Shown here one piece after another: positions 321 through 17,405 of a DNA stretch of 33,129 bases (within the stretch, counting starts at the first letter, position 1; each line of letters starts with the position of its first letter). The position numbers and the translations under genes were made by a program. Below the pieces are notes generated by a model that worked only from the letters and a program-made list of their open reading frames with translations, was not told where the DNA came from and did not search any database. The stretch is from Bacteroidaceae bacterium (lineage in GTDB: Bacteria > Bacteroidota > Bacteroidia > Bacteroidales > Bacteroidaceae). The DNA is taken from NCBI GenBank assembly GCA_017628845.1, contig JAGBYI010000182.1:1-33129 (forward strand), given 5' to 3'.

Positions 321-402
321 AGTTGTAATTGTTTATAGGGTTAGTATTTTGGGTTATTTGTTTTTCGTTTTTGTTTTCACCTTTTCGCTTTCCGTTTACT
401 TT

Positions 403-523
403 GTCCCCTGTCTCTGGGGGACAGTCAGTTGCTATTGGCTAACGTTATCACCCAACTTTCTCCCCCTGAGACAGGGGTGAGTACCCCGCAGGGGGGGAGG
501 GGGTGGATTATATACCGTTCTCA
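403..523 (-). repeat. Full palindromic intergenic element, copy 1
   Basis: The element contains two nested hairpins, GTCCCCTG.../...GGGGGACAG and CCCCTGAGACAGGGG, around a unique centre that reads GGCTAACGTTATCACCC. It ends in GGAGGGGGTGGAT on the plus strand. It is nearly identical to copy 2, with one substitution (CTCTGG for CTCAGG) and one extra G in the G run. The outer left arm present in copy 3 is missing here. Strand is given relative to the upstream minus-strand gene. Confidence 0.9.
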
Positions 524-641
524 CCTTTCCGTTTTCCGTTTTCACTTGACTTATCGTCAACCTTTGTTTCGTCGAGCCTGCTCTCGCTTACTCACAGCTT
601 TTACTTTCCTGTTCGTTAGGTGTGGATAGTTTTCCTATCTC

Positions 642-704
642 ATCCACCCCCTCCGCTTCGCTCGTCCCCCTGTCTCAGGGGGACAGTTTGCTGGCGCGGT
701 GGAT
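642..704 (-). repeat. Half palindromic element, copy A
   Basis: The outer arm ATCCACCCCCTCC and the inner hairpin GTCCCCCTGTCTCAGGGG are shared with the full element. After them the sequence closes with TTGCTGGCGCGGTGGAT instead of the full element's centre. The ends ATCCACC and GGTGGAT are themselves inverted repeats. The 2922-2984 copy is nearly identical, in the same orientation. Confidence 0.88.
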
Positions 705-829
705 TGTTCTTAGTTTTCCGTTTTCACCTACCCTCCGCTTCGCTCCCTTCGGGTCCAGCGTCGCACTGGGCAGTGCTCTCCTCAGTGGGCACAGAATGAC
801 ATTTGGTCATTCTTCTAAAGCCCCTCTTC

Positions 830-949
830 GTCCCCTGTCTCAGGGGGACAGTCAGTTGCTATTGGCTAACGTTATCACCCAACTTTCTCCCCCTGAGACA
901 GGGGTGAGTACCCCGCAGGGGGGAGGGGGTGGATTATATACCGTTCTCA
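830..949 (-). repeat. Full palindromic intergenic element, copy 2
   Basis: This matches copy 1 over its whole length, including the downstream flank TATATACCGTTCTCA. It lies just beyond the 3' end of the haem lipoprotein gene, separated from it only by a GGAAAAC-type tract. Its inverted arms could fold into a strong RNA hairpin in the transcript of that gene. Confidence 0.9.
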
Positions 950-950
950 G

Positions 951-992
951 CTCTCACCTTTCCGCTTTCCGTTTTCACATTTCCGTTTTCTT
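951..992 (-). repeat. Purine-rich GAAAACGGAAA tract overlapping a stop codon
   Basis: Read on the minus strand this is a degenerate seven-base repeat (GAAAACG-like). It supplies the last few codons (K-K-T-E-M) and the TGA stop (975-977) of the haem lipoprotein gene, and continues into its 3' untranslated region. Comparable tracts in the same sense orientation follow the stop codons at 3016 and 15820. Confidence 0.8.
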
Positions 993-2531
993 CGTTGCTC
1001 CCGTCAGGGCATCAGTCCTCGGTTCTCCCACATAGGTGGCAGTGTCGCCGTCGGTGTGGTATATTATATCGCGCAGTGTCTGCTCGGACACCTGTACGGC
1101 ATTCTTGCTCAGTTCAGGCACATTGTAACTCTTCAGAAGCAGGATGTTGTGCTCCGGGTCGCGCTGTGGCAGGCAGAAAGCCTTGTGTGCCTTGCCCTGC
1201 TTGTCAAAATAGGCAAAGAAGGGACGTGTGTAGTTGCCATCCATGCGTCGGGTAGAGAACACTATCCAGCGGCCGTTGCTGCTCCAAGTGTGATACGAAT
1301 CCACATCGTTGCTGTTTGCTTCGGTCAGAGCATAGCAAGTGTCGTTCTGCAGGTCCTTAACCCACAGGTCGCTGCTCTTGTGCCAGATATGGAACTGTCC
1401 ATAGTCACCCTCGGCATATAGCACATATCGGCCGTCGGGACTGACACGGGGGAAGGTCACACTCTTACCTGCAGAAGCGGCATCCACCACTACCTCAGGG
1501 GTACTGAAACTGTCGCGTTCGGCATCATAGCTCATGCGCATCAGGTTGTAGTGTATCTTCTCGTAATTGGCTGTTATGCCCACCGCACGCAGGCTGTCGG
1601 GGATGCCTATTACCTGTGGTATGTAGGCGGCACAGAAATACAGGGCGTCTCCTTCTGGTGTCCAGCAGGGGAAGGTCTCAAAGTATTCTGTGCTCAGCAA
1701 GTTCTTCACCTCGTTCTTGTCTGCATAGTAGAGAAGCAGGTCGCTGTCCGTATCCACCACCTCTATCTTCTCTGCATGATACATGTGGAAGGTCTGTCCG
1801 GTCTTGTTTGTAGAGAAGCACACCATATTCTTTTTCGGGTGCCAGGAAGGATACACTCCGGCGGCCAGGATGTTTGGGTTCTTTATCTGTATCTTCCTTG
1901 CCTTGTCTCCCTCTATCATTATTGTGCCGCCATGGTTGGCACGCACATGGAACAGCATGCGGTCGGTGCTGTAGTTCTGGAAGTTGTGGCAGTTGATGCA
2001 GTGGTTGTTCCCCTCTTCGTACAGTCTGTTGTTCTCGTAGATGGGCTTTTGTGTGAAGTTCTCCATACAGCGCTGGTAGATACCCAACTGACGGTAGAGT
2101 TCGTAACCAGGTTCTATCAGACGGTAGGACAGGTACGGGTCTATGGGTTCTGCCACAGTAATGGTATGCGGAGCATGGCGGAACCACTTTTCTCCCTCCA
2201 TGGTGTATACCGTCACCTTTAACTCTCCGCCGGCATTTTCATTTAGCAAGGCACGCCACTCCGTGGTGTCCACATCTATGCGGTCTATTCCGGAGGCAGT
2301 CAGCGTCGTACCTTTGCCTTCAAAGGTAACCACCATGGCCTGTGCTCCTTCTGTCATGAAGTTCAGCGGCGCAATGTTTTCTGGTATGACTATGTCCTTG
2401 TAGTCGGGATATATGTTGGCCTGTTCCGTTTTTTCCTCGTAGGTGGCAGGCACATCAAAGGTCTTCTGCTTGCAGGCGGTAAGTATGGCAGCAGTCAGTA
2501 CTATATATAATATATAAGGTATATGCTTCAT
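975..2531 (-). CDS. TolB/PD40-like beta-propeller lipoprotein with a c-type haem motif
   Basis: The product has 518 residues. The N-terminus is a lipoprotein signal ending LTAC, with the lipidated cysteine at C20, so the protein should be membrane-anchored outside the cytoplasm. A CxxCH motif (C178-I-N-C181-H182) followed by a conserved-looking NFQNY stretch indicates one covalently bound c-type haem. The second half has repeated propeller-like blades (for example FPCWTPEGDALYF, FPRVSPDGRYVLYAEG and HTWSSNGRWIVFSTRR), as in TolB/PD40 proteins. The start ATG directly precedes the signal peptide. The gene lies 484 bases downstream of a DUF6057-like gene on the same strand, and the gap is packed with repeats. 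Its last codons and stop are formed by a purine-rich repeat tract. The substrate and role are unknown; a redox or sensing function is only inference. Confidence 0.85.
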   Translation of the reverse strand: MKHIPYILYIVLTAAILTACKQKTFDVPATYEEKTEQANIYPDYKDIVIPENIAPLNFMTEGAQAMVVTFEGKGTTLTASGIDRIDVDTTEWRALLNENAGGELKVTVYTMEGEKWFRHAPHTITVAEPIDPYLSYRLIEPGYELYRQLGIYQRCMENFTQKPIYENNRLYEEGNNHCINCHNFQNYSTDRMLFHVRANHGGTIMIEGDKARKIQIKNPNILAAGVYPSWHPKKNMVCFSTNKTGQTFHMYHAEKIEVVDTDSDLLLYYADKNEVKNLLSTEYFETFPCWTPEGDALYFCAAYIPQVIGIPDSLRAVGITANYEKIHYNLMRMSYDAERDSFSTPEVVVDAASAGKSVTFPRVSPDGRYVLYAEGDYGQFHIWHKSSDLWVKDLQNDTCYALTEANSNDVDSYHTWSSNGRWIVFSTRRMDGNYTRPFFAYFDKQGKAHKAFCLPQRDPEHNILLLKSYNVPELSKNAVQVSEQTLRDIIYHTDGDTATYVGEPRTDALTGATKKTEM

Positions 2532-2622
2532 GTATGGCTTTATGTTTGTAGAATATCTAGGTTTCTCTTTGCTCCTCTGGCGGACAAAGCACTATGTCAT
2601 TGTTGCTTTGCTTGCTGTTATC

Positions 2623-2646
2623 GGACGCTGCACGCAGCGTCCCTAC
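2623..2646. repeat. GGACGCTGC/GCAGCGTCC palindrome
   Basis: A palindrome of 9-bp arms around AC reads GGACGCTGCACGCAGCGTCC, followed by CTAC. The same sequence recurs at 13462-13485, where it forms the right arm of a larger inverted repeat. It lies in the leader region of the haem lipoprotein gene. Confidence 0.85.
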
Positions 2647-2730
2647 TGTTGTTCAACCTTTGACTCTCACCTTTGACCTCAGCCTCTCTATGGACGTCAA
2701 CCTTCGGTTTCATTTTTGTTTTATGTTCTA

Positions 2731-2858
2731 ATCCACCCCCTCCGCTTCGCTCGTCCCCCTGTCTCAGGGGGACAGTCAGTTACTGCTGGCTAACGTTATC
2801 GCCCAACTTTCTCCCCCTGAGACAGGGGCGAGTACCCCGCAGGGGGGAGGGGGTGGAT
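2731..2858 (-). repeat. Full palindromic intergenic element, copy 3 (most complete)
   Basis: This copy has both outer arms: ATCCACCCCCTCC at the left and GGAGGGGGTGGAT at the right. Nested inside are GTCCCCCTGTCTCAGGGG and CCCCTGAGACAGGGG. Only about 40 central bases are unpaired. It has one small asymmetry: the right arm carries an extra CCCCGCAGGGG mini-hairpin where the left arm has GCTTCG. The centre differs from copies 1 and 2 at a few bases. Confidence 0.9.
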
Positions 2859-2921
2859 TATATTCAGCTCTCAGTTTTCCGTTCTCCGTTTTCCGTTCTC
2901 CGTTCTTCGTTCTTCGTTCTC

Positions 2922-2984
2922 ATCCACCCCCTCCGCTTCGCTCGTCCCCCTGTCTCAAGGGGACAGTTTGCTGGCGCGGTGGAT
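2922..2984 (-). repeat. Half palindromic element, copy B
   Basis: Same structure and orientation as the half element at 642-704, with a single visible substitution (CTCAAGG for CTCAGGG). It is flanked on both sides by TTCCGTTTTC-type tracts (GAAAACGGAA on the minus strand). Confidence 0.88.
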
Positions 2985-3018
2985 AGCTTTCCGTTTTCCG
3001 TTTTCACCTTTCCGTTTA
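2985..3018 (-). repeat. Purine-rich GGAAAAC tract beginning at a stop codon
   Basis: On the minus strand, the TAA stop of the DUF6057-like gene (3016-3018) runs straight into ACGGAAAGGTGAAAACGG and further GAAAACG-like units. The half element at 2922-2984 follows directly. Confidence 0.8.
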
Positions 3019-4605
3019 ATTCACTCCCGCTGTACTTGAACCTTCATTCTTCGGAGTTTTGCGTGTTGCCTTCAGATTGCCGAAGAAGTAGTAGTAGGGA
3101 TAGTATCCTTTGTATCTGGGGAACAGTTCTCTTGCGTACTTGGGACGGTCCTTCATATAGGGCTTCATCTCTGAAATCTTGGATGCCAATTTCTGCTGTC
3201 TGAATTCCATAGAGGGGAATCTATGCACTATTCCTTCGTCCTTGGATATCATCAGGCACAGGGCATCTGCTACATTCTCTGGGGGGAGAGTGCCCTCCAA
3301 GGGGCGAGTTCGCATCATAAATGCAGGCATTGACTTGGAATACATGCACACCGCCAGCGAGTTGAGCAGGGCATTCTTGCTTCGTCCTTCGGTCAGCGCA
3401 GCATTATAACCCAGGAAGGTGGGTTGCTGGTATTCGTTCTCGAACGAGTCGTTGACAGGTTCAAGTTGTCGTATGAACGCCATCTCCTTGTCGGCATTCA
3501 CCACTTCTGGCTTGCCCACGTAGGCGCTGTACTTCTCCACAAACTCCTTTTCAAAGGGCACGTCGCTGAGTATGCGCAGGTATTTCCTTGCCACCTCCCA
3601 TTCGCCCGTCATGAGAGCGCATTTTGCCAACAGTTCCATGGAATGGATATTCGGGCCTACCATAGTGATGCGTTCCATGGCATGGTGGATGCATGTCTGC
3701 ATAAAGCCGGCATGATAGTCGCAGTCCTCCTGATATAGGTTCAGGGTCATGGCATGCTTGTCCTGGTTTCTGCCGTGCAGGTACAGAGAGTCATAGTCAA
3801 GACGTATGTCATAGAGGCGTTCGCATATCTGGTTTGTCTTCACTAATGCTATGGCATAATTGGCGGCTATAGGACGATAGGAGAGTTCTGCATTCTTGCG
3901 TGCAGTCTCCATGATTGTCTGCCAGTCGTTGTCCAGCAGACTCACGTTCATGTCTGCTATGACACGTGTATAAGGGCGCTGTATCTCGGTGAAAGCCCCC
4001 TGCGCAGAGAAGACGGCCACTACGGCCAGCAGTTGTGCCCTGTTCTGCCATGGTGTCTCGTCCTTTGGTATGCTGACGATGGAGGGCGATTTCTTGCGTG
4101 AGAAGCTTGCAATCATTATTGCCCATATAGTCAGTATTATGGTGGCACAGAAAGGTATGCCCAGTATGGCGCCTGCCTCGTTCTCGTAGAACAGGTTCGC
4201 ACCCTCGTATGCTATCCACATAAAATATATTCCTGCAGGGATATACTGCAGCCAGCGCCAGCGTGCGGTCAGTCTCATGCCGTAGCCTATGCACCATGTG
4301 CACCATGTTACCATCGTGGCAGGAATCAGTGCGCCTATCCATGGGTAGCGGAACATCATCATCATCATGCGGCCGATGTACCACAGACTGCCATATTCCT
4401 GACTGAGCAGGAAGTCCATCTGTTCGGCACTTGCCACCCAGAAGCTTCGTTCGCGTGCCATGCGCAGGACATCGCCGTAGTACCATGCCGCCCACAGGTA
4501 TGTTGCAGCGAACAGTATGGGCAAAACAGGCAGCAGCAGGTTTTTTCGTTTTTTCTCTGCCGTTTGTGCCGTCTTGTTTATCTTTGGTGTCTCTTTTTGC
4601 TTCAT
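3016..4605 (-). CDS. DUF6057-like multi-pass membrane protein
   Basis: The product has 529 residues from the ATG at 4603-4605. A GTG two codons upstream is possible, but it sits only about three bases from the promoter -7 box. A basic N-terminus (K/R-rich to about residue 22) is followed by several hydrophobic segments in the first 180 residues, at about 23-42, 75-100, 110-130 and 145-165. The remaining 340 or so residues look soluble and helical, with TPR-like spacing (for example the MELLAKCALMTGEWEVARKYL stretch without its last residue). I recognise the general type as the Bacteroidales DUF6057 family, which has no established function. A TAnnTTTG box lies eight bases upstream of the ATG, so the message is almost leaderless. 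The haem lipoprotein downstream on the same strand is a likely partner, by neighbourhood only. Confidence 0.75.
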   Translation of the reverse strand: MKQKETPKINKTAQTAEKKRKNLLLPVLPILFAATYLWAAWYYGDVLRMARERSFWVASAEQMDFLLSQEYGSLWYIGRMMMMMFRYPWIGALIPATMVTWCTWCIGYGMRLTARWRWLQYIPAGIYFMWIAYEGANLFYENEAGAILGIPFCATIILTIWAIMIASFSRKKSPSIVSIPKDETPWQNRAQLLAVVAVFSAQGAFTEIQRPYTRVIADMNVSLLDNDWQTIMETARKNAELSYRPIAANYAIALVKTNQICERLYDIRLDYDSLYLHGRNQDKHAMTLNLYQEDCDYHAGFMQTCIHHAMERITMVGPNIHSMELLAKCALMTGEWEVARKYLRILSDVPFEKEFVEKYSAYVGKPEVVNADKEMAFIRQLEPVNDSFENEYQQPTFLGYNAALTEGRSKNALLNSLAVCMYSKSMPAFMMRTRPLEGTLPPENVADALCLMISKDEGIVHRFPSMEFRQQKLASKISEMKPYMKDRPKYARELFPRYKGYYPYYYFFGNLKATRKTPKNEGSSTAGVN

Positions 4606-4613
4606 AATCACGG

Positions 4614-4621
4614 CAAAGATA
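4614..4621 (-). promoter_or_regulatory. -7 promoter box TATCTTTG for the DUF6057-like gene
   Basis: This is an exact match to the Bacteroidota consensus TAnnTTTG on the minus strand, eight bases before the ATG at 4605. The transcript would start within a few bases of the ATG. Confidence 0.7.
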
Positions 4622-4654
4622 GTAAAAATAAATGAGAAGTGGAAAGGAAAGTGT

Positions 4655-4692
4655 GAAAAATAGGGCGGTGCACCCTTTCAAGTGCACCGCCC
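4655..4692 (-). terminator. Hairpin terminator of the M60 peptidase gene
   Basis: On the minus strand an 11-bp perfect stem (GGGCGGTGCAC/GTGCACCGCCC, arms 4682-4692 and 4663-4673, eight-base loop) is followed by TATTTTT. This is a classical intrinsic terminator about 45 bases after the stop. Confidence 0.88.
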
Positions 4693-4736
4693 AGTTATGA
4701 TTGTTTGCCTGTGTTCTCCTCAGGCAGTGGCAAGTC

Positions 4737-7700
4737 TTACTTCACAACCACCTTGCCGCCTACAATGAATACACCCTTTGCGTTGGCGTTGTTCACCTTG
4801 CGTCCGGACAGGTCATAGATTACCTTGTCGGTATTCTCCTCTGTGCCCTGGATGTCGTTGATGTCCACGGTGGGGTCTATTTCGATAGCTTTATCATACA
4901 AGTTTTTGTAGAAGGTGTTCAGGTTGGTCCATACCACGAATGTTCCTAATGTAGTCCTGAGGTCCTTTTCCAGTTCCTTAACAGCAATGTTCTTGTATGT
5001 AATGACATTGTTGGTTCTGCTAAGTTGGCCTTCAAAACCAGCCTTCATTACTACGCTTCCGGGGGTCGCGTCTTCTGTTATGTCGGCAATGAGGTCCTCT
5101 GCCAGTGTTATTGCATTCTCAACAGTTTCATCGGTGATTGTTTCGTCAAACTCCTGACTGAAGTCTATTATCCACTGCGAACCTTCGTCGGCACCATGCC
5201 ATATTGTTACATTACCAGAGTTGTCGCCATCCAGATTTATGTAGGTGTTGTCCTTTGGTCTGATGCCAAACTTACCGCCTCCCAATGATTGTATCTTGCA
5301 CACTACGATTCCGCTGTCGGGATAGGCTTCTGCCCTTTTAATAGCTGTCACTCCGCCCTTTTCGTTGAGTTCTGCACCTACCATGCTGATGTCCTGTCTG
5401 TTTTGCAGATAGTATTCATCCTCATTACCGGTGGCGACGAAAGCCCAGCGAGAGCGGTTGTTTGCGCTGGTCTGTGTGGTCAGTATGTTTTTGCTGTCTA
5501 TGGCAAGATATCGTGTCTGTGAGTTTATTGTGCGTACGCCTCCAATCAAGTACAGACCGTTTGACACAATCCTGTTATCGCGCTTCTCTATCTGGATTTT
5601 CAGTATCTCGTTGTTGATCTTGTCTGCCAGTGTCATGTATACGTCCACATTGCCGGCTTTGATTGCTGTATTGGCATCTGCAACAAGGGCTTTGAGAACG
5701 GCCAAATCCTCAGTGCTGTAGTAGCCGATTTTGGTGTCTTTCGGGTCTTCCAGACTTGTATATGCCTTCGTGGTCTCTATAGCTTTTTGCAGGATGACCA
5801 GTTTTTCTTCGTCTGTAGCTGTTTCGGATGCGTTCTTTACCTCAGAACTTGTTCCGTCGGCATTGATGCACTTGATGGTAAAGTCGTCTGCTGCCACCTT
5901 GGCGGGAATCTCAAAACTATATCTGTTGCTCATATACACATTGTTTCCAGCCTTGTCGTAAACGATGAAGCCTACACCGCCCTGTCCCTTTAAGGTAAGT
6001 TTGGTACCGCTAAGGATGTATGTGTACTCGCTGGTGTTAGCGCTGCCGTCTATGTAGGTCAGGATGTCACCCACATCGCCATACTCGGCCTTGAGCTGTT
6101 CCTCGTTCCACCATGCTTCCCAGTTTGTAGGCTTGAATCTGCGGTCGCCTGTTGCATCCTTTGCCCAGATGTCGGTACGCTCGCGGGGAATCTGACGGTC
6201 TTCCACGAACATGATCTGCAGGTTCTCGGGATAGCCCTTTGACTTTACCTCAGCGATTGCATCGTCAATTTCTTTTTGTGTCAGTGAAACTGCATAGCTG
6301 GTATAGTCGCCCAGATAATACTTGTCGCAAGGTACGAAGAAACCCCACAGACGGAAGTATTCAGTCAAGTCCTCCTGAGCGGCCTCACAAGCCTTCTTAT
6401 AGAACTTAATCCAAGTCTTTGTAGCACTGTGGTGACCACCACTGGGTGCGCCCCATTCTGGATGTGAGTACTGGACACCATCTCTGGAGAAGTCCATGGG
6501 ATCCTCGCGCAGGCTCTTTACAAAGGTGGGATAGAAGTCCTTCTTCTTGCCACCGATGTGGTAGTAGAGGAACAAGTTGTAGTACATGCGCATGGTGATG
6601 CTGATATCACGAGCACCAAACACTACGTTGTTAGCAGCATAATCATAGTTCTCTCTGAAAGTCATACCACGACCCAGACGGAAACCGCTCAGATAGGTAA
6701 TGATGTTTGAGGGCAGGTTTACAGATGACTCGGAGCAAGACTCCAAGTTGTATGCTCCCTGCATTTGGTGACCATGCTCGTGGCCTGCACACCAGTTGTC
6801 GAAGTTCTCGCGCTCTGCATTGAACGAACTCTCAACACTGCCAGGACCGGGATAGCTGGTATAGAATGTAGTAGCATGGGGATTCTGGCCATCAGGACCT
6901 TCCATTGCCATAGACGGGTTATTGCAATATGTGGGATAGAAAGCATCACCGCCCTTGATATTTAGGGGATATGCAGATTTTGAGTACTCTGTGCCGTTCT
7001 CGCACAGGCCGTTAGCCACATCGTCCATAACACCGATTACGGCAAACTCCCAGAACTGCAGACGGTCGAACCAGTTGATACTGTTCCAGATGGTCTTGGG
7101 GAAGTGTTGGGTGTAGGTGTACTTCTTGAAGTAGAAGAGAGAAGTAGCGCCCTTTACCATGAAGTACATGTCGTTATTGGCATTCTTTGTCAGGTACTGG
7201 TACTTGGCATCCTCCTCGGCACTATTTTCGGCTGGTTTCTGGTAGTAGCCTACGCACTGACCGCCTTCGATGTGGATGTCCATATTGGGGAAGTCGCTGA
7301 TTTTGGCGATGGTCTTAGTGTGTGCGTTTACATTTGATGTAGGAATGGTGTTTACTACATAGTTGATGAAGTACACTACGCTATCGCGTGAACCTACGAC
7401 TGCATTGTAACCCTTCTTCAGTTCTATACCTTCGTAGCGTCCACCGATGCGTCCGTGATTGCGTATGGGTGTCAGGTATAGTGTAGCACCTTCGGGGATG
7501 TCGTTGCCCACGAATACGTGGATAATTTCCTTGCTCTTTGTTGCATAGATACCGGTGGGGTTACCCATGAAGCTGGGAGCGTATGTATTCATCTTTTCGC
7601 GCCAGTTGTTAGCATCGGAATAGGGCTTGTATGTAGCCACACGGAAATCCTTGGCATACTTGTTCGCATCGGCATAAGCAGAGCTTGCAGTGTTTGTCCA

Positions 7701-8378: not shown

Positions 8379-8417
8379 AGGCTGAGTTTGTATTAGTGGT
8401 TAGTATATAATTCGGTA

Positions 8418-8440
8418 CAAAGGTACATTTTTTTTTTTTT
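8418..8440 (-). promoter_or_regulatory. Promoter of the M60 gene: TACCTTTG with an upstream A tract
   Basis: On the minus strand TACCTTTG (8425-8418) matches TAnnTTTG and would give a leader of about 35 bases. Directly upstream is a run of 13 A residues (T on the plus strand, 8428-8440), which could act as an UP-like element. There is no clear TTTG box at the usual distance. Confidence 0.7.
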
Positions 8441-8559
8441 CTGTAAGCAGAATTTGTTGTTTTTAACATTTATTACTCATGTGTCCGTATTCTTGAGAGT
8501 GTTCATTGCTGTTTGTCGATGCTACAATAATCTAAGAGGTGATGTAGGTGAATATAATA

Positions 8560-8589
8560 AGGATGCCCTGCCGGTGGGCAGGGCATCCT
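8560..8589 (-). terminator. Strong hairpin terminator of the 1294-residue surface protein gene
   Basis: A 13-bp perfect stem (AGGATGCCCTGCC/GGCAGGGCATCCT, arms 8560-8572 and 8577-8589) has a four-base loop. On the minus strand it is followed by TATTATATT. It lies about 45 bases after the stop codon, just beyond an ACACCTTAT motif. Confidence 0.85.
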
Positions 8590-8590
8590 A

Positions 8591-8607
8591 TATTATAAAT
8601 AAGGTGT
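8591..8607 (-). repeat. AT-rich ACACCTTAT motif, copy 1
   Basis: On the minus strand this reads ACACCTTATTTATAATA and continues into TAGG, between the stop codon of the surface protein gene and its terminator hairpin. Closely matching copies lie at 17387 and 31052. Confidence 0.6.
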
Positions 8608-8633
8608 AAACCTTATTCTTGGGCTTTATTGTT

Positions 8634-11600
8634 TTAGCGCTTTGTAACCTTCACACCGTTTACAATGTAAACACCTGCGGGCAGCTTGTTCACAGTGTTG
8701 AGGTTACCCTTGCCTACCAACTGGCCAGCAGCGTTGTAGATATTACCAGTCTTGGCTACCTTGTTCAGAACATCAGCGATGCCAGTGTCAACGATAGGCT
8801 CGCCCTCGAGGTCGATGATGAGACCACCTTCGGTTTCAGCAGTGAAGTTAGCGTCGATGTAAGCAGAGAATGCTTCGATATCAGCGGTTTCCTTCACGAA
8901 TTCGAACTTGTTGTCAACAGCAACGAAGCCCTTGCCTGCAGAGATGGTGTCTGCCTCCATGGTACCTCTGAGACTGCCGATCCAACGAGCCTCAGTGTTA
9001 ACGTCCATGCCGTGATCCATCATTGCTACGTAGTAATCCAGTGTCAGCTTGCCGTTAAGGGCATTGTTGTTCCAGTATTTCCAAGTCTCTTCTTCATTTT
9101 CAGAACCGGGAACATACTTTGGATCAATTTCCTGCTTGTAGCGCTCGGTTGCCTCATCAATACTCTCGTATTCTGTAGAATCTTCAGCAATCCATGTGGG
9201 TTCTGCAAGCAGCAAGAAGGGATGTCCGGCCTTGATGGTCTTGTCTTCGATGGGGTTAAGAACCAGAGTGGTGTCAGTTTCTGTAACCTTGAGAGAAGCA
9301 CCGTATGCGGTGGGAGTGTCATAAAATTTGTCATCAACGATTGTGATATCCACGGGCATTGTCATAGCATAGATGGTGCCGGGCCACATTTCCATCTGGT
9401 ACTCGGTTGCGGGTTCCTCTGTTACGGCTTCAACCTCCTCGATGAGCATCATTGAACGTGAACCGATTTCGTCAGTCTCCCAGCATACCAGTCTGCGGTC
9501 TGAGTTCTGACCGTGCAGGTGTCTGAGGTTGCTTACGGTATTGCCCAGTACGTCAGTGTAGGTAACCAGGTTACCGCCGGCGCCCAGAGCCTTGGTGCTC
9601 CAGTATGTGGGGATGGGGCTCAGAGTACAGGGGTGACCGCCGCGCAGGAAGAGACCTGTAGCCTTGTTCTGGATCATGTATGAGCTATCGGTAGCCTCGA
9701 TGAAGCGGAACAGGTTCTCGCCAAGTTCGAAGTTCTCGATTTCATCCTCGGTGTAGAAGAACATGTTCTGACCAGCATAGAAGTCCTGATCTGCATCAGC
9801 AACCTTGTAGATGGTTACAGTGTCGATTAAGCCGTTCTTCTCGTAGAAGTATTCTGTAGCGTCCTCACCGGCAGCAACAATCTTGCCGAAGATACCTTCG
9901 CAACGTACGATGTCCTCGCCGGTATGTGTGTCGGCAGCAGCCTTGATGGTCTTTGCACCGGCAACCTTGTCCCAACCGAACTCGTCGAACATTGCCTCAG
10001 AGGGGAATGCGAACTGATACCATACACCGGTCTTAACACCGTTAGCGCTTGCCAATGTTACAGAGTCGGCATTGTTGATGGCCTTGATCCAGTTGGCAGA
10101 TGTAACCTTGTTGTATGCACCGCTTTCATTATATGCCTTTGCATCATTTACAACACCAATTACAGAAACCTTAGAGGCGTCTGACCATTCACCAGGATTC
10201 TTGCCGATGGGGAACATCTTTGCGTCGTAGTTGTGTGCCTCAATGGTTGAGCGCAATTCTGTGGGATTTACGTAAACCTCGCCCCATGCCTTGCCAGTAG
10301 CAACGATGTTGTTGTAGGCATCAATGAAGGTCTGGTCGGTAAGGAGTGCCACGCTGTCGTCGGCAAATGCCTTCTCGTTCCACAGGTCAACAGCGGCCTT
10401 CAGTGCATCAGCCTCAGCCTGGCGGACGCTGTATTGTGTGGTTGCGTAGCGAGTAATCTTGGTAGGAATTGTGGGATCGGGGCTGATAAAGTTCAACTCT
10501 GCAGCATGCCAGTAACCACGATTACTTGTTGTCTCAGTGGGATACAGACGTATGTACTTGTAACCAGTCAAGTCATAGGGACCAGTGATGAGTGTGTCGC
10601 CATTGGTTGCGTATGGTTCCTCGTATGTTACAACGGCAATCTCTGTTCCGTCGTTAAATGTTGTTGCACTGGTAGGTTCTGTTGTATAGCCCTTGATGGT
10701 GAACACCTTTATTTGGTCGGCCCCTGCTTTACGACGAACATAGCGAAGCAAGAATTCTCCCTGAATCTCAGCAGGTGAGTTGATCTGGAGATAATGTACA
10801 TTTGCATCTACGTTGCCACCTGACCAACTTGAGTGCCAGTAAGTGTTGTCCTTGTCGTCAAGAAGGAAGTCATATACAGACTTGCCGGATGGTACAGCCT
10901 GACCGTCGTTAGTAGAATAGGGACTGTAGAAATAACTTCCGTCTGCTGCAACTTGTGCGGCGGGATTAGAAATGCTGTCCTGAGCAATTTCCAACTGTGC
11001 AGGGAATGCAGCGGCAATGCTGTCACCCTCCTTGATCTTGGCGCGCAGTTCCAGAACAGGCTTCATTGAATCCATCCATTCGGCGGCTTCCTCATCGCTT
11101 ATGGGAGTGAGGAACCACTGAGATGCCTCTGCACCGGGTGCCCAACCTACGATGTTGCCGTTTGTGCCAGTGCCATTGCTGTGACCATTGCAATGGATAT
11201 GACGGTATGACGCGGGGCCGTCAACAATGTTGCGGATAGCGATAAGGTCTACAATGCGGTTGTCAGCCAGAGTGTCCAGACCCCACCATGTGATGAAGTA
11301 TTCGGATGTGTCGTTCTTCTCCATGTTCACGCCCTGAGACTGGTTGATGCGTGCAAAGGTCATCTTCTGGTTCATGTTGATGATCTTGTAGGCCTTTGCA
11401 GTGTCGCCCTTCTCTACTTTCCACAGGAAGTCTGCAGTTTCCTTTCTGGTGCCCCAGTATGCCTTGCCATTGTACTCGTAGAGAGCCTTGGGGTCCTGTG
11501 CTACAGTTTTTGGGATTCTTTCCTTGACGGTAACACCAGCTTCAATATAATCAGGACTGCCGGGCTCTGCACCGTTCAGCATGTTTTCTTCCTCTGCCTC

Positions 11601-12518
11601 TTCTTCAGTGTAATATACATACACAGTATCAACTTTGGTGAAGGTAAGACCGCTGCTGATGGTGTAGTAACCAGGAGCGATGTCGGGTATTTCGCGAGGA
11701 ACAGTGTTTTCTACTACAGAATCCTTGGCCTCAACGTATCTTGCAGTGAATGCGTCCATGTCCTTTGGCTCAGTGAACATAGTCTTGAGGGGATCCAAGC
11801 CTGCGCCCTGAACTGCATCTACTATGTTAGAAGCAGAGTCCTGCTTTGCAAGGAAGTATTCTACGATCTCGGGTTTGTAGTTGCCATAATATGCACCTAC
11901 GTTCTTGCCAGCTTTCAAGTCAGCGATATTCAAGGCTTGACCAACAGATGTCATTGCATCTGTAAGTCTGTTGAAAGCAAACTCGTATGGGTCAATGCTG
12001 CTGAGGTCAATTGCTGTAATGGCAAATGAGTTACCTTCGTCGACTGTAACCCAGCTGTTGATTACCATACCAGTCTGGTACTGACCCTTAATCTGTGTGT
12101 TTATACCATTGCCTGCCAACTTGAGCAACCAGGGATACTGGCTGTTTCCGGTTTCGGAAATTCCGAGTTCAGAGGCTTCGGCGATAGTTTCCACATATAC
12201 ACTCTGCTCGCCAGAATGCTTTACATACTTTTGAGCACCAATGCTATAAAGGTAGTACTTGCCTTCATTCTGCTTGATGTTGAAATGCTGGTTAGTGTCC
12301 ATAGGGTCGATCATAACATTCAACCCTGTAGCATTTGTTGTGTTCAACTTGTCAGCCTGTGCGGGATTATAAATCAGCGCACATCTGGCCGAAGCGATGG
12401 TGTAGATAGTCTCGTCGTTCAGTTGCTCCAAGGAAGTAACTGGAGTCATGCCTGCTTGAGCAAAAGCACTGACACAACACAACACCATCATGGTAAGAAA
12501 AGATGTAATCTTTTTCAT
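8634..12518 (-). CDS. Large secreted surface protein with a discoidin-like region and a T9SS-type tail
   Basis: The product has 1294 residues from the ATG at 12516-12518. The frame stays open for another 318 codons upstream, but that part is antisense to another gene and precedes a clear signal peptide (MKKITSFLTMMVLCCVSAFAQ without its last residue), so I reject the longer form. After the signal there is a lectin-like N-terminal region (about 25-165) and a long middle part. An F5/8C-discoidin-like region (about 545-675) contains LLDDKDNTYWHSSWSGG and a C-terminal KYIRLYPTETT...WHAAELNF stretch. The C-terminal tail (about 1245-1294, IYNAAGQLVGKG...VNGVKVTKR) resembles a T9SS sorting domain. 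I see no catalytic motif. A glycan- or matrix-binding surface protein is likely; the exact function is unknown. Confidence 0.85.
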   Translation of the reverse strand: MKKITSFLTMMVLCCVSAFAQAGMTPVTSLEQLNDETIYTIASARCALIYNPAQADKLNTTNATGLNVMIDPMDTNQHFNIKQNEGKYYLYSIGAQKYVKHSGEQSVYVETIAEASELGISETGNSQYPWLLKLAGNGINTQIKGQYQTGMVINSWVTVDEGNSFAITAIDLSSIDPYEFAFNRLTDAMTSVGQALNIADLKAGKNVGAYYGNYKPEIVEYFLAKQDSASNIVDAVQGAGLDPLKTMFTEPKDMDAFTARYVEAKDSVVENTVPREIPDIAPGYYTISSGLTFTKVDTVYVYYTEEEAEEENMLNGAEPGSPDYIEAGVTVKERIPKTVAQDPKALYEYNGKAYWGTRKETADFLWKVEKGDTAKAYKIINMNQKMTFARINQSQGVNMEKNDTSEYFITWWGLDTLADNRIVDLIAIRNIVDGPASYRHIHCNGHSNGTGTNGNIVGWAPGAEASQWFLTPISDEEAAEWMDSMKPVLELRAKIKEGDSIAAAFPAQLEIAQDSISNPAAQVAADGSYFYSPYSTNDGQAVPSGKSVYDFLLDDKDNTYWHSSWSGGNVDANVHYLQINSPAEIQGEFLLRYVRRKAGADQIKVFTIKGYTTEPTSATTFNDGTEIAVVTYEEPYATNGDTLITGPYDLTGYKYIRLYPTETTSNRGYWHAAELNFISPDPTIPTKITRYATTQYSVRQAEADALKAAVDLWNEKAFADDSVALLTDQTFIDAYNNIVATGKAWGEVYVNPTELRSTIEAHNYDAKMFPIGKNPGEWSDASKVSVIGVVNDAKAYNESGAYNKVTSANWIKAINNADSVTLASANGVKTGVWYQFAFPSEAMFDEFGWDKVAGAKTIKAAADTHTGEDIVRCEGIFGKIVAAGEDATEYFYEKNGLIDTVTIYKVADADQDFYAGQNMFFYTEDEIENFELGENLFRFIEATDSSYMIQNKATGLFLRGGHPCTLSPIPTYWSTKALGAGGNLVTYTDVLGNTVSNLRHLHGQNSDRRLVCWETDEIGSRSMMLIEEVEAVTEEPATEYQMEMWPGTIYAMTMPVDITIVDDKFYDTPTAYGASLKVTETDTTLVLNPIEDKTIKAGHPFLLLAEPTWIAEDSTEYESIDEATERYKQEIDPKYVPGSENEEETWKYWNNNALNGKLTLDYYVAMMDHGMDVNTEARWIGSLRGTMEADTISAGKGFVAVDNKFEFVKETADIEAFSAYIDANFTAETEGGLIIDLEGEPIVDTGIADVLNKVAKTGNIYNAAGQLVGKGNLNTVNKLPAGVYIVNGVKVTKR

Positions 12519-12581
12519 AAATGTTTGTTGTTTGGTTAATAAATTGGTTAATTGATAAAAGAGTTTCTTTTTGGTTAGATT

Positions 12582-12599
12582 AATAATAAATAAGGTGTA
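12582..12599 (-). repeat. AT-rich ACACCTTAT motif, leader copy
   Basis: On the minus strand ACACCTTATTTATTATTA lies in the leader of the surface protein gene, about 65 bases before the ATG. It matches the motifs found after other genes over its first 15 bases but lacks the closing ATAGG. Confidence 0.5.
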
Positions 12600-12674
12600 A
12601 TTCTCTGAACTCGGGCCGCTGCCCTCGTTTTTGTGGTGGAAAGCGCAGTGTATGCGTATTGCACCTTTTCGTGG

Positions 12675-12682
12675 CAAAGGTA
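12675..12682 (-). promoter_or_regulatory. -7 promoter box TACCTTTG for the surface protein gene
   Basis: An exact TAnnTTTG match on the minus strand predicts a leader of about 150 bases before the ATG at 12518. I found no TTTG at the usual upstream distance. Confidence 0.55.
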
Positions 12683-12799
12683 GGGAAAAATTCATTCTCG
12701 TGCGTATGCGTGCACAGGTTATCTGCAGGATGTTAACAATTTTTAACCATAGTGGATGTAAATGTTGCCCGAAAAGTTCGTTCTGTTGTCTAATTTGTG

Positions 12800-12807
12800 T
12801 ATCTTTG
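12800..12807 (+). promoter_or_regulatory. -7 promoter box TATCTTTG for the methyltransferase-like gene
   Basis: An exact TAnnTTTG match ends eight bases before the ATG at 12816, which implies a leaderless or ultra-short leader message. The same eight-base spacing occurs at the DUF6057-like gene. Confidence 0.6.
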
Positions 12808-12815
12808 TGGTAGTT

Positions 12816-13355
12816 ATGCGCTTGTTTCGTAACCCCATAGTATGGTTTTTGCGTTTCCGTTGCCGCAAGGGCTACGGCATACATTCCCCGTTTGCCTTTT
12901 CCTTTGTTACAGACGTACTTTACTGCGATGAAGAATACTATGCCTATGAGCAGTTGGACCGTGGACTCTGCTGGTGGCAGAAGGGCAGGGAGAGGGATGT
13001 TCGCCATCTGGCCTTTCGCCTTGCCAACTACAGGCGGCCGCGGACACTGTACTGCCCGGGCCTGGATGCACCGCTTTCCGAGGCTTGCCAATGCGGAAGC
13101 AGGGAGGCGAGGCTGATAGATGCCGGTGAGGCAGGAGTGGCAGACATGATATTTGTGCCTGGAACCGATGAAACGGTGTTTTCCTGCATTGGCGAGGGCA
13201 CCATGGTGGTGGTTGACGGCATACGTTCCTGTCGTGCCTTCTGGGAACGCATAAAGGCAGACGGGCGAATAACCGTGACTTTCGACCTCTACGACATTGG
13301 CATAGCCTTTGCCAGGAGAGACCTGAATAGACAGCACTACAAGATAAACTGGTAG
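12816..13355 (+). CDS. Methyltransferase-like hypothetical protein (YGIHSPFAF family)
   Basis: The product has 179 residues from the ATG at 12816. An in-frame ATG at 12762 would place the start upstream of the promoter -7 box, so I prefer the later one. The N-terminus has the KGYGIHSPFAFSFVTDVL segment seen in a Bacteroidota family often labelled SAM-dependent methyltransferase. The C-terminus FDLYDIGIAF...QHYKINW is also typical of that family. As I remember the family, members are often longer (200-250 residues), and I cannot see a convincing glycine-rich SAM-binding loop here. The protein could therefore be a reduced member or something that only shares the ends. It is divergent from the surface protein gene. 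Its 3' region carries the repeat modules. Confidence 0.6.
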   Translation: MRLFRNPIVWFLRFRCRKGYGIHSPFAFSFVTDVLYCDEEYYAYEQLDRGLCWWQKGRERDVRHLAFRLANYRRPRTLYCPGLDAPLSEACQCGSREARLIDAGEAGVADMIFVPGTDETVFSCIGEGTMVVVDGIRSCRAFWERIKADGRITVTFDLYDIGIAFARRDLNRQHYKINW

Positions 13356-13417
13356 GATAGAATGGCGAGTGGATGAGTGAACGGGAAACGGAAAGCTACA
13401 TCCAATCCGCTTAACCA

Positions 13418-13485
13418 GTAGGGGCGCTGCAGCGTCCGCATGATGTTCTGTTGGCCCTTTCGGACGCTGCACGCAGCGTCCCTAC
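13418..13485. repeat. Inverted repeat built from the GGACGCTGC palindrome
   Basis: The left arm GTAGGGGCGCTGCAGCGTCC (13418-13437) pairs with the right arm (13461-13485, reverse complement begins GTAGGGACGCTGC), with a loop of about 22 bases. The right arm is identical to the palindrome at 2623-2646. Confidence 0.85.
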
Positions 13486-13501
13486 AAGAGAGAACAACCC
13501 T

Positions 13502-13570
13502 ATCACCGCGCCATCAGACTGTCCCCCTGAGACAGGGGCGACGAGGAGCAAAGCGACGGAGGGGGTGGAT
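13502..13570 (+). repeat. Half palindromic element, copy C (opposite orientation)
   Basis: The reverse complement matches the half elements at 642 and 2922: ATCCACCCCCTCC, the hairpin CCCCTGTCTCAGGGGGAC, and a TGGCGCGGTGAT end. The flip in orientation matches the flip in direction of the upstream gene. Confidence 0.85.
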
Positions 13571-13604
13571 GAAAACGGGAAGGTTAAAACGGAAAACGGA
13601 AAAA
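13571..13604 (+). repeat. Purine-rich GGAAAAC tract
   Basis: Units such as AAAACGGAAAACGGAAAAAC follow the half element directly, in the same order as after the DUF6057-like gene. Confidence 0.75.
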
Positions 13605-13701
13605 CTGGGTGGCGCTATTGCCTGCTTTCTCGCCCTGGGGCAGGGGAGCCGAAGGTTGATGCCCGACGCCAGTAGGGATCTTAACTTAAAATTTAAATAC
13701 T

Positions 13702-14253
13702 ATGGCAAAGATATATACAAGAACAGGAGATGAGGGCGAGACCTCGTTGGTAGGGGGCAAGCGCGTGAGGAAGGATTGTGCAAGACTGGAGGCCTATGGT
13801 ACCGTGGATGAACTCAACAGCCACTTGGGGTTGTTGTGTGCCTCTCTTGACGATGAAATGGCAAGAAACAGTATCTGCGAGTGCCAGAATGTCCTCTTCG
13901 TAGTCGGTGCCCTGCTGGCTTCCGAGAATGGGGAGGCAGGGCATGCTATGCCGGAGGTGAGTCAGGATGATGTCCTTGCATTGGAAAGGCAGATGGACGA
14001 ATGGAATGCCGTCTTGCCAGGTTGGCGAGGTTTCGTTCTGCCCGGCGGTGTGGAACCGGCAGCAAGGGCGCAGGTGTGTCGTGCTGTGTGCCGCAGGGCA
14101 GAGAGACGTATACTGGCTTTGGCTTCCGAGGCCCATGTTCCCGCCGAGGTGCTTAGATATGTGAACCGCCTGAGCGATTTTCTCTTCGTTTTGGCTCTAC
14201 ATGAGAACTTTTTGGCAGGGAGGGACGAAATTCTTTGGCAAAAGCGTAGGTAG
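13702..14253 (+). CDS. PduO-type cob(I)alamin adenosyltransferase
   Basis: The product has 183 residues, the usual size for this family. It starts MAKIYTRTGDEGETSLVGGK, the characteristic N-terminal ATP-binding segment (TxTGDxGxTxL). The RLEAYGTVDELNSHLG segment (about residues 28-43) and a later ARAQVCRAVCRRAERR helix with conserved arginines follow. The C-terminus has the YVNRLSDFLFVLA motif (about residues 153-165). The enzyme transfers the adenosyl group of ATP to reduced corrinoid, making adenosylcobalamin in the cytoplasm. This suits Bacteroidales, which use B12-dependent methylmalonyl-CoA mutase. There is no SD before the ATG, and no promoter box was found. Confidence 0.93.
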   Translation: MAKIYTRTGDEGETSLVGGKRVRKDCARLEAYGTVDELNSHLGLLCASLDDEMARNSICECQNVLFVVGALLASENGEAGHAMPEVSQDDVLALERQMDEWNAVLPGWRGFVLPGGVEPAARAQVCRAVCRRAERRILALASEAHVPAEVLRYVNRLSDFLFVLALHENFLAGRDEILWQKRR

Positions 14254-14268
14254 TATGAATAATAGTGT

Positions 14269-14317
14269 TATCTTTGCCGACTGGAAAGGCAAAAAAGGCC
14301 TTGAAGTCCCTTAAGGG
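14269..14317 (+). promoter_or_regulatory. -7 box TATCTTTG and leader hairpins before the DUF2795 gene
   Basis: TATCTTTG (14269-14276) matches the consensus. The predicted start is near 14281, inside a hairpin at 14279-14308 (GACT...AAGGC/GCCTT...AGTC). A perfect ten-base palindrome, CCCTTAAGGG, follows at 14308-14317. The hairpin could cap the message, or end transcripts from upstream. Confidence 0.55.
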
Positions 14318-14346
14318 TTCTACGCAAAGATTAAAAAGAATAATAT

Positions 14347-14568
14347 ATGTACTGGACATTGGAACTGGCCTCCAAACTGGAGGATGCACCCTGGCCCGCT
14401 ACCAGGGAAGAGTTGATTGATTATGCCGTGAGAAGCGGTGCTCCCCTGGAGGTGATAGAGAATCTGGAGGAGATAGAGGACGAAGGCGATGTGTACGAGA
14501 CCATAGAGGACTTGTGGCCCGACTATCCCCAGAAGGAGGATTTCCTTTGGGATGAGGAGGAGTATTAG
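14347..14568 (+). CDS. DUF2795 small acidic protein
   Basis: The product has 73 residues, very acidic. The segment PWPATREELIDYAVRSGAP (about residues 17-35) is the core of the DUF2795 family, and the rest (LEEIEDEGDVYETIEDLWPD) is a Bacteroidetes-specific tail. It is the typical family size. The start has no SD; an A-rich leader precedes it. No biochemical function is established for the family. It sits as a single gene between a promoter and a hairpin terminator. Confidence 0.9.
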   Translation: MYWTLELASKLEDAPWPATREELIDYAVRSGAPLEVIENLEEIEDEGDVYETIEDLWPDYPQKEDFLWDEEEY

Positions 14569-14630
14569 GATGGGGCAAGGGCTCGGACTGCTTCCGTTTG
14601 CCCATAGATACCCCGTTTTACGGTATAAGG

Positions 14631-14673
14631 AAAAAAGGGATTGTGTCGGTTGTGGCTGGCGCAGTCCTTTTTT
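14631..14673. terminator. Probable two-way hairpin terminator after the DUF2795 gene
   Basis: AAAAAAGG (14631-14638) pairs with CCTTTTTT (14666-14673). The stem extends by about six further pairs (some G-T) after one bulged G. A-tract and T-tract flanks suit termination in either direction, and the hairpin insulates the T9SS operon. Confidence 0.65.
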
Positions 14674-14769
14674 GTGTTTCTATGTAGTTGCAGAGGTTCC
14701 CCATTTTCTTCAGAAGGTTCCGAGGCAAAGATTTTGGGAGAGACTGGAGGGTTATTCGTGAAAAATGTG

Positions 14770-14777
14770 TATTTTTG
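14770..14777 (+). promoter_or_regulatory. -7 promoter box TATTTTTG for the T9SS operon
   Basis: An exact TAnnTTTG match predicts a leader of about 78 bases before porP. There is no good TTTG at 19-20 bases upstream, so the -35-like part is weak or replaced by an activator. Confidence 0.6.
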
Positions 14778-14860
14778 CATGCCATATAATGAGTTGTTGC
14801 CTTTAGGGAATAATAAAATGCACCTCGAGGGCAATATATTAAGAGTATAGTACGTTATAG

Positions 14861-15820
14861 ATGATGATGAAGAGGCTGTTGTTGACACTGGCGATGATGC
14901 TACCCATGGTGTGGGTGGCGGCTCAGGACGATGTGGCCTTTACCAACTACTGGCAGTTCCAGAGTTTCTATAATCCTGCAGCGGCAGGACGTACGGGACT
15001 TCTGGACATAAATGCAGCCTACCGCATGGAGATGCTCGGATTTGAGGATGCGGGACAGACTATGCTGATACAGGGAGACCTGCCAATGTTCTTCGTGCCC
15101 AAGGCAGAGAGACATGGCATGGGTGCCGGATTTATGAACGATAAAATCGGTCTTTTCTCCATAAAGAGGATGTGGGTGCAGTATGCCTATCATCATCCCA
15201 TTGGCAGGAAGTATGTGCTGAGCGGCGGCTTGCGCCTGGCGCTTCTGGCCAATTCCTTCAAGGGCAGCGATGTGGACCTTGGGGAAGGTTCCTCAGATGA
15301 ATATGTGCCAACAACGGATGTAAACGGAACGGGTTTCGATATGGACTTCGGCCTGAGGTTTGAACGCAGGGGACTGTGGTATGTAGGACTCTCGGCAATG
15401 CACCTTCTTTCGCCCTCGGTATCCATGGGCGAGGACAAGCAGTACGAGATAAAGACCGCACCGGCGATATACGCCACTGGCGGCTATACGCTGAGGTTCC
15501 GCAGACCGGAATTCTCGTTGAAAACGGCAGCAATGTTCCGTACGGACATGCAGAACTGGCGTGCTGACATAAACGGCCGTCTGTGTTACGACGGGGAGAA
15601 AGGCAAGATGTATGCCGGTGTGAACTTCAGTCCTACGGTAAGCGTGGCACTGCTGTTGGGTTTCACCTTCCACGGTGTTAACATAGGGTACAGTTATGAA
15701 ATGTACACCGGAGGCATAGCGGTGCAGAATGGCACGCACGAGATACACATCGGCTACCAGATGGAGATGAACCTGACAAAGAAGGGCAAGAACAGACACC
15801 AGTCGGTAAGGTGGCTGTAG
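14861..15820 (+). CDS. porP: T9SS outer-membrane protein PorP/SprF family
   Basis: The product has 319 residues. The signal peptide spans about residues 1-22 (MMMKRLLLTLAMMLPMVWVA), and the mature part opens with the family hallmark FTNYWQFQSFYNPAAAGRTG (about residues 27-46). Alternating beta strands follow to the end, consistent with an outer-membrane barrel. In the T9SS, PorP/SprF works with the PorK/PorN ring. It is the first gene of the operon, 107 bases before gldK. Three in-frame ATGs make the exact start uncertain by two codons. A purine-rich repeat tract begins right at its TAG stop. Confidence 0.93.
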   Translation: MMMKRLLLTLAMMLPMVWVAAQDDVAFTNYWQFQSFYNPAAAGRTGLLDINAAYRMEMLGFEDAGQTMLIQGDLPMFFVPKAERHGMGAGFMNDKIGLFSIKRMWVQYAYHHPIGRKYVLSGGLRLALLANSFKGSDVDLGEGSSDEYVPTTDVNGTGFDMDFGLRFERRGLWYVGLSAMHLLSPSVSMGEDKQYEIKTAPAIYATGGYTLRFRRPEFSLKTAAMFRTDMQNWRADINGRLCYDGEKGKMYAGVNFSPTVSVALLLGFTFHGVNIGYSYEMYTGGIAVQNGTHEIHIGYQMEMNLTKKGKNRHQSVRWL

Positions 15821-15862
15821 GAAACGGAAAACGGAAAACTGGAAGGTGGAAACGGAAAACTC
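15818..15862 (+). repeat. Purine-rich GGAAAAC tract beginning at the porP stop codon
   Basis: The TAG stop continues directly into GAAACGGAAAACGGAAAACT and more such units. The orientation relative to the gene is the same as at the stops at 975 and 3016. Confidence 0.8.
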
Positions 15863-15927
15863 CGTTAGAACTTTAAAGCCTTAAAAGACCATATCCGCCT
15901 AATAAACGATAAGATTAAAACCAAGAT

Positions 15928-17379: not shown

Positions 17380-17386
17380 CAGCACA

Positions 17387-17405
17387 CACCTTATTTATTA
17401 TATAG
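17387..17405 (+). repeat. AT-rich ACACCTTAT motif, copy 2
   Basis: ACACCTTATTTATTATATA followed by GGG starts eight bases after the gldK stop. CCT-(T)-AT can pair with ATAGG, leaving one bulged T. It is nearly identical to the motif after the surface protein gene. Confidence 0.6.

Follow-up and report, generated by a model that had tools for sequence, protein, structure and literature searches.

Heptameric repeats and small G+C-rich palindromes are widespread in bacterial genomes, and their source is not known. The intervening sequences of 23S rRNA encode IVP, the gene for this four-helix-bundle protein lying between inverted repeats. Here we describe a stretch of 33,129 nucleotides from a Bacteroidaceae bacterium (GCA_017628845.1, contig JAGBYI010000182.1; the whole stretch is called the window) in which tandem heptad tracts of the word GGAAAAC and C/G-rich palindromic elements line up behind the stop codons of several genes. 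The window corresponds to contig C198 of G000, a metagenome assembly of 2.67 Mb in 223 contigs that is 84.6% complete. The tract follows a simple rule: it points outward from genes, that is, inward from both edges of an insert, and the palindrome is exempt from this rule. The most likely cause of the pattern is a set of nested mobile or once-mobile inserts, rather than signals of 3' untranslated regions (3'-UTRs), and we consider it probable that each module is a copy of one of two small types of insert that bear a gene, the copies being nested and mostly devoid of that gene.

The heptamers of Xanthomonas (GGGAATC) and Nostoc (GGGGA(C/T)T) follow the same outward rule (Rehm et al., PMC4692102). 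According to the main text of that paper they are tandem, as is the tract, lie on the coding strand 0-50 bp past stops and on the non-coding strand upstream of genes, and occur as close convergent pairs. The polarity of heptads at gene ends is therefore already known; the passages describing it there give no mechanism, and the main text contains 0 occurrences of 'four helix', 'intervening sequence' and '23S rRNA'. The GGAAAAC tract differs from the heptamers described there in its words, in having no three-G runs and in bordering an IVP gene in two species. On inspection, neither GGAAAAC nor GGTGAGC, the commonest heptad word of the sibling species G093, has G-quadruplex potential, both having two-G runs only. 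The TAACTGA repeats of Beggiatoaceae, present also in some Bacteroidetes, are orientation-biased intergenic heptad arrays as well; in the account given in parts of PMC4679880 they mostly run toward start codons, whereas the arrays described here run away from genes.

Among palindromes, the work of Di Nocera et al. (PMC3733652) places repetitive extragenic palindromic (REP) sequences downstream of open reading frames (ORFs) and within uvrA and the gene of DNA polymerase I. The GTAG and CGTC REPs with their REP-associated tyrosine transposases (RAYTs), as presented in that main text, resemble the system described here in having palindromes past ORFs and in replication and repair genes, with a partner enzyme proposed for the GTAG REPs. 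The difference is that no Y1 transposase was found in most of our species and that the candidate partner is a DUF559 nuclease, which the main text of PMC3733652 does not mention. Rickettsia palindromic elements, described in passages of PMC3733652 and of a review of miniature inverted-repeat transposable elements (MITEs; PMC10969869), are palindromic repeats that lie in frame in many unrelated protein genes, and in-frame insertion into protein genes is likewise found here. Compared by description only, our modules differ from them in phylum, in forming tract-module arrays and in having a candidate partner gene.

Orientation, arrays and turnover of the modules

Orientation relative to genes was scored in 836,335 bases of the source assembly G000 (35 contigs), where 642 genes were called with a purpose-made codon-model script instead of a standard caller, and in stretches of the sibling species G082, G093 and G098. 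The G000 and G082 stretches were picked for their repeats, and those of G093 and G098 for contigs with earlier matches, a choice that should leave orientation unbiased. The sibling species (G000, G078, G082, G093, G094, G096 and G098) are related by ancestry, and their counts are therefore not independent. Tract copies were counted at no more than one mismatch unless stated otherwise.

The recurrence of the tract in G000 is not due to chance: GGAAAACGGAAAAC has 29 exact matches in this genome (overlapping ones included), against 0 for the reversed control. The 836 kb tested contain 67 copies. In co-directional spacers 31 of these are sense and 9 antisense, which corresponds to 23 sense spacers, 4 antisense ones and 4 ties (p = 3e-4). 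The preliminary description had held that the modules keep a sense orientation after stop codons. The tract does so: co-directional spacers contain 18 copies no more than 30 nt from a stop, every one of them sense, where uniform placement over the same spacers predicts 6.0 copies. The palindromic element does not, its right end occurring in 12 sense and 15 antisense copies and its left end in 8 and 15. Within 30 nt of starts the tract is antisense in 4 of 5 cases, and copies within genes are sense in 16 of 17. Divergent spacers contain no tract in G000, G082, G098 or G093. The siblings repeat the polarity near stops (sense to antisense 15:1 in G082, 6:1 in G098 and 4:0 in G093) and show counts of 0:8, 0:1 and 1:0, respectively, near starts; over whole spacers, G082 has 13 sense, 4 antisense and 6 ties. 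The 6-mers met most often in the 12 nt behind 624 G000 stops are tract words, and the tract lies within ~45 nt of only 24 of these stops. A role of TAA microhomology at insertion was considered and rejected, since tract-adjacent stops are TAA in 12 of 24 cases and those of all called genes in 325 of 624.

The polarity extends to heptads of other words. Period-7 arrays of any word, oriented by purine skew, have their purine-rich strand in sense near stops (16:1 in G000, 6:0 in G093) and mostly in antisense near starts (1:5 and 0:1), with totals of 31:12 and 8:4 over all co-directional arrays. A frame N-W-D-A-R-C-G is common to 79 period-7 arrays, all 79 of which have A at position 4; its information content is 7.2 bits, whereas none of 20 shuffles exceeds 4.5. 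Period-9 arrays are over-represented too, with 24 in the 836 kb of G000 and 0 in shuffles.

Exact matches of the tract number 25 in G078, 106 in G082, 13 in G093, 11 in G094, 31 in G096 and 131 in G098, and 1 each in G034 and G006; 3 of 60 other sampled species of the genus have it, in one copy each. Of the 138 other species examined in the genus, only 6 have the right end of the palindromic element. In a collection of sequences the same element end was met in 40 stretches, 36 of them 'Bacteroidaceae bacterium' assemblies, from ruminant hindgut according to their titles. A Tidjanibacter assembly (L194) carries the same palindromic element, so that either the element or a contaminating contig occurs outside the genus. 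Three distant assemblies (L170, L175 and L189) match the end pattern without surrounding repeats, which we read as chance.

The arrangement of neighbouring tracts speaks for insert edges. Of the 30 G000 pairs no more than 400 nt apart, 20 face the same way, 10 are convergent and 0 divergent; the corresponding numbers are 4, 10 and 1 in G082 and 4, 1 and 0 in G098. Antisense heptads near a start are six times as frequent in spacers that have a tract at the stop (14 of 41) as in others (24 of 434; p = 3e-7). Insert symmetry is seen in a third of cases. Because both edges of such an insert face inward, the edge next to a gene points away from it, which reads as sense after a stop and as antisense before a start. 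Of the 22 elements listed, two of which overlap, 16 have on one side a tract that runs into the palindrome and 4 a tract that runs away from it; the ordered arrays are therefore repeats of a tract followed by a module.

Modules are gained and lost between relatives. Three regions compared between G082 and G098 differ in length by 14 nt or more at 22 places. At two of these, after the DUF6057 gene and inside uvrA, a module Q (80 nt and 83 nt) is present in one species only and is flanked by tract repeats of 17-18 nt. The DUF6057 stop is followed by tract arrays in G000, G082, G098 and G093, by another heptad word in G094, and by spacers without the tract in G034 and G006 (~12 nt) and in G078 (~55 nt). 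Within genes, a module word occurs in 9 of 426 well-scored G000 genes of at least 150 amino acids, five of which we take, from their sequence, to be uvrA-, polA-, mfd-, feoB- and gluQ-like. The uvrA linker has a different filling in six species including G000 and is short in G078, G034 and G006, and the reading frame is open across the insert in all six. A hotspot common to separate assemblies argues against an assembly artefact. In four G000 proteins (C147:18291, C190:25418, C50:39315 and C93:687) an in-frame tract lies ~29 residues before the end and immediately precedes a YDLSGRRV-type C-terminal stretch.

Two small genes and their repeats

Two lone genes of the clade, in G093 and G098, sit between inward-facing tracts. 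Both belong to 23S_rRNA_IVP by Pfam (PF05635), and the one tested in NCBIfam is a 'four helix bundle protein' (TIGR02436). A PF05635 gene between inverted repeats is the arrangement of the 23S rRNA intervening sequences, from which these inserts differ in lying outside rRNA genes and in having heptad arrays as their inverted repeats. In the DNA examined, tblastn found these two genes and no further relative. On plasmids, 25 records contain the gene, 11 of them from Nostoc; eight were taken, one of which (Bernardetia) belongs to the same phylum. Inverted flanks with a score of at least 13, which is the minimum of the set, surround 8 of 8 plasmid IVP genes and 0 of 36 other coding sequences. A period-7 array is found on at least one side of 7 of 8, compared with 4 of 36 other coding sequences; random gaps in the same loci have one on either side in 18 of 160 cases and on both sides in 3 of 160. 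The heptad words include GAAGTCG, GTAATTC and TTAGTGA, and the arrays face inward as judged by eye, without a count. By annotation the neighbours are protein genes, and the loci are not within a 23S rRNA gene. The control genes of this and the following plasmid test were small coding sequences chosen by hand from annotation tables, away from the tested gene; some IVP controls were shortened, and one IVP locus yielded none. In Anabaena cylindrica (L325, 4001-4348) the IVP gene is flanked by cas2 and cas1.

The second gene was first met in the comparison of G082 and G098, where one of the 22 differences is a stretch that only G098 has, with palindromes on either side of a small ORF. The ORF encodes a DUF559 protein (PF04480), which is Vsr-like and matches the solved endonuclease-like protein 3hrl (E = 4e-13). 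The nine genomes searched contain 14 DUF559 genes, all in the seven species with elements, and the two element-less species among the nine, G034 and G006, have none. Seven of the 14 form a group B, delimited by eye. Palindrome cores lie within 200 nt on both sides of 6 of these 7 genes, one in each of six species, and such flanking was reached by 38, 4 and 0 of 20,000 random placements in G000, G098 and G093, respectively. In G078 and G096 the left half precedes the DUF559 gene and the right half follows it, in the same order as in the gene-less element. The gene-less 127-nt element matches both of the halves flanking the gene (83-98% identical), and the half element matches the right one. As in MITEs, a gene-less copy thus shares its ends with a gene-bearing element in these two species, and does so in partial or rearranged form in four others. 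Group A genes have palindromes unlike those of group B.

Inverted flanks with a score of at least 14 were found at 14 of 14 DUF559 genes of the clade, at 2 of 600 random gaps in four of the species, and at 6 of 288 called clade genes of 240-600 nt, the six including two DUF559 and two IVP genes. The G000 group-B gene (C159:1314-1793, outside the window) lies between palindrome pieces; its reading frame ends within the right palindrome half, and the locus scores 12 on the whole called gene because that gene extends into the palindrome. Window positions 1-271 overlap C159 positions 1-271 at 97.8% (6 mismatches), and C159 is probably the contig that adjoins the left end of the window, or that place in a close strain. 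The mismatches also suggest that the assembly may be a mixture of close strains.

The same test was applied to plasmids, mostly of other phyla. From 39 matching records, 15 loci with 8 kb flanks were taken and 14 scored, a Pseudanabaena galeata locus being excluded for having its DUF559 domain within a long ORF. Inverted flanks of at least 14 were found in 8 of 14 loci, namely those of four Deinococcus, Qipengyuania, Pseudanabaena, A. lipoferum and Picosynechococcus 7003; among 168 random gaps in the loci scored, 95% score 11 or less and the maximum is 16. Compared with other small annotated genes, DUF559 genes reach the threshold in 8 of 12 cases against 1 of 94 (p = 1.4e-8), two unannotated DUF559 loci, both negative, standing outside this comparison. 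Shifting the threshold gives 9 of 12 against 5 of 94 at 12, and 7 of 12 against 1 of 94 at 18. In five plasmid loci (L305, L308, L311, L313 and L315) DUF559 is a lone gene within paa, suf or hpa clusters. One Pseudanabaena plasmid has a DUF559 gene between large palindromes, and another has a DUF559 domain in a 1,621-amino-acid ORF of a BREX locus (L309, L317). A pattern search for group-B DUF559 in viral contigs matched 12 stretches, 0 of which were confirmed. A passage of Matthey et al. (PMC12907096) describes a Vsr-like protein, and a literature search for DUF559 with palindromes or inverted repeats returned nothing relevant by title. The link between DUF559 and palindromes is new only within the literature searched, and the novelty in print of the IVP-heptad link is not established, as no dedicated search was made.

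Origin of the modules

The anatomy observed at these genes outlines two types of putative insert. In the first, seen in two species of the clade and on plasmids, a lone IVP gene is enclosed by inward-facing tandem heptad arrays, the GGAAAAC tract forming such an edge; in the second, a lone DUF559 gene is enclosed by pieces of a C/G-rich palindrome. The IVP protein may act on the heptad edges and spread them, as the nuclease may act on the palindromic (hairpin) ends and spread those. Gene-less copies would be spread along in trans, in the manner proposed for REP sequences and RAYTs, and inserts would persist in short spacers and protein loops. Palindromes and other modules could later enter and leave at tract copies, giving rise to the ordered tract-module arrays. 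The preliminary description had also considered an element that inserts at transcript ends: insertion fits the data best, and targeting of transcript ends is not needed, since most of the polarity can be put down to the short spacers together with the inverted edges of inserts. In its widest form, which we put forward only tentatively, polarised heptad arrays are the inverted edges of IVP-gene inserts and C/G-rich palindromes the ends of DUF559 inserts, each paralogue with its own palindrome, across phyla, and both are mobile without a transposase. If this is true, one class of elements would be moved by a mismatch-type nuclease and the other through a protein without a known catalytic site. 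Partner genes would explain how repeats enter the linkers of UvrA, Mfd and PolA; a partner gene for each class of repeat makes their origin a testable question and offers a role for two families named only by fold or number.

Several observations weigh against a reading in terms of such inserts. At up to two mismatches, divergent spacers of G000 contain 4 tract copies, and the excess of tracts at stops over starts is only partly explained by symmetric inserts. Sense heptads near a start are also four times as frequent in spacers with a stop tract (6 of 41 against 16 of 434, p = 0.0075), which inverted edges alone do not predict. The whole-spacer counts are 9 sense, 3 antisense and 1 tie in G098 (p = 0.15) and only 4 sense and 2 antisense in G093. 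No clean single insertion was found, nor one bearing a target-site duplication; both clean module events sit between tract copies. No IVP gene was found in the 31% of the G000 genome examined, and plasmid IVP genes have period-7 arrays on both sides in only 3 of 8 loci, with none at that of Nostoc UHCC 0870. The halves flanking DUF559 are rearranged or partly missing in G094, G098, G000 and G093, the group-B gene at G098 C20 has a variant in place of the canonical palindrome, and of the six group-B genes that are flanked, four appear to share a single ancestral site near nagB. In G082, which contains 106 exact tracts, only a group-A DUF559 was found. The plasmid loci of Photobacterium, A. brasilense, Sphingomonas, two Synechocystis and Picosynechococcus 7002 (score 13) stay below the threshold, and both thresholds (14 for DUF559, 13 for IVP) were fixed after the scores were seen.

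The alternative that survives best, although we regard it as unlikely, is that the repeats are passive, multiplying by heptad slippage and recombination between tracts, and that DUF559 and IVP genes were just caught in repeat-rich spacers. The special standing of period 7 (62 arrays against 0 in shuffles) and the gain and loss of modules between tract copies are as expected of such repeats. The pairing of each gene with its own type of repeat in distant bacteria, unlike other small genes of the same loci, argues for the insert reading instead. That a Y1 transposase (RAYT) or another insertion sequence (IS) moved these modules as ordinary REP or MITE families appears improbable. The palindromes, their positions and the intragenic copies do resemble REPs as presented in the main text of PMC3733652; however, the Y1 transposase (PF01797) was not found in G000 or in five of the six other element-bearing species, all of them incomplete assemblies in which other IS families were not searched, and it is DUF559 that occupies the space between the element's own ends. 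The transposase occurs once in G078, and twice in the element-less G034. A reverse transcriptase as driver was looked for as RVT_1 in G078, G082, G093 and G098 and not found; G000 has a single reverse transcriptase match (PF00078, C9:4987-5628).

Retention by selection of 3'-UTR binding sites or transcript-end signals, as the preliminary description suggested, accounts for the tract excess and strict sense orientation beside stops and for the strong predicted RNA hairpins, and is nevertheless highly improbable, given that the same modules lie in frame in uvrA-, polA-, mfd- and feoB-like genes, which argues against a termination signal, that tracts upstream of starts are antisense and palindromes unoriented, that the tract is near so few stops (24 of 624), that the element right end is limited to 6 of 138 other species of the genus, and that the orthologous DUF6057 stop has no tract in G078, G034 and G006.

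Modules of the window

The order of modules reported earlier behind three genes was recovered in the window. All 8 tracts, counted at up to two mismatches, and all 6 elements are in sense with the upstream gene and flip with its strand. On the minus strand, the stop of the DUF6057 gene (at 3016) is directly followed by a tract (2986..3006), a half element matching the right half of the palindrome (2922..2984), a second tract (2874..2901) and the full palindromic element, ATCCACC...GGTGGAT (2730..2858), of which a 127-nt stretch is predicted to fold at -79 kcal/mol as RNA. The next gene on this strand (975-2531, stop at 975) has a tract overlapping its stop (964..977), and then a palindromic element without its right end (828..934), a tract (713..726), a half element (642..704), a tract (524..544) and another element lacking the right end (405..508). 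The three elements described as full are thus present, and two of them miss the right end, matching positions 1-108 and 1-103 of the 129-nt query. Farther along, the start of a minus-strand gene at 3..320 presumably belongs to nagB; on C159 the DUF559 gene lies beyond this gene. On the plus strand, the gene at 12762-13355 is followed by a tract (13383..13396), the palindrome GGACGCTGC (module P, 13460..13485, without strand), a divergent half element (13504..13570, 84% identical) and a tract (13584..13604). The stop of porP has, as reported, the tract alone, here a double one directly behind it (15819..15860, plus strand).

Pfam matches back the names DUF6057 and PorP/SprF. The 'haem lipoprotein' has a PD40 match and a CxxCH motif spotted by eye, and the 'methyltransferase-like' protein of the 12762-13355 gene has no Pfam match at 1e-3. 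A consensus terminator scan of positions 300-16000 found no excess (15 against 16.3 expected), and an Rfam scan of positions 1-18000 gave four weak matches, none reaching its gathering score. The full element has 66 blastn matches in G000, some of which are both strands of one palindrome. The palindrome GTAGGGACGCTGC (module P, without strand), which lies at 2621..2646, has 61 matches in G000 including this one and that at 13460-13485, and it begins with GTAG, as RAYT-linked REPs do.

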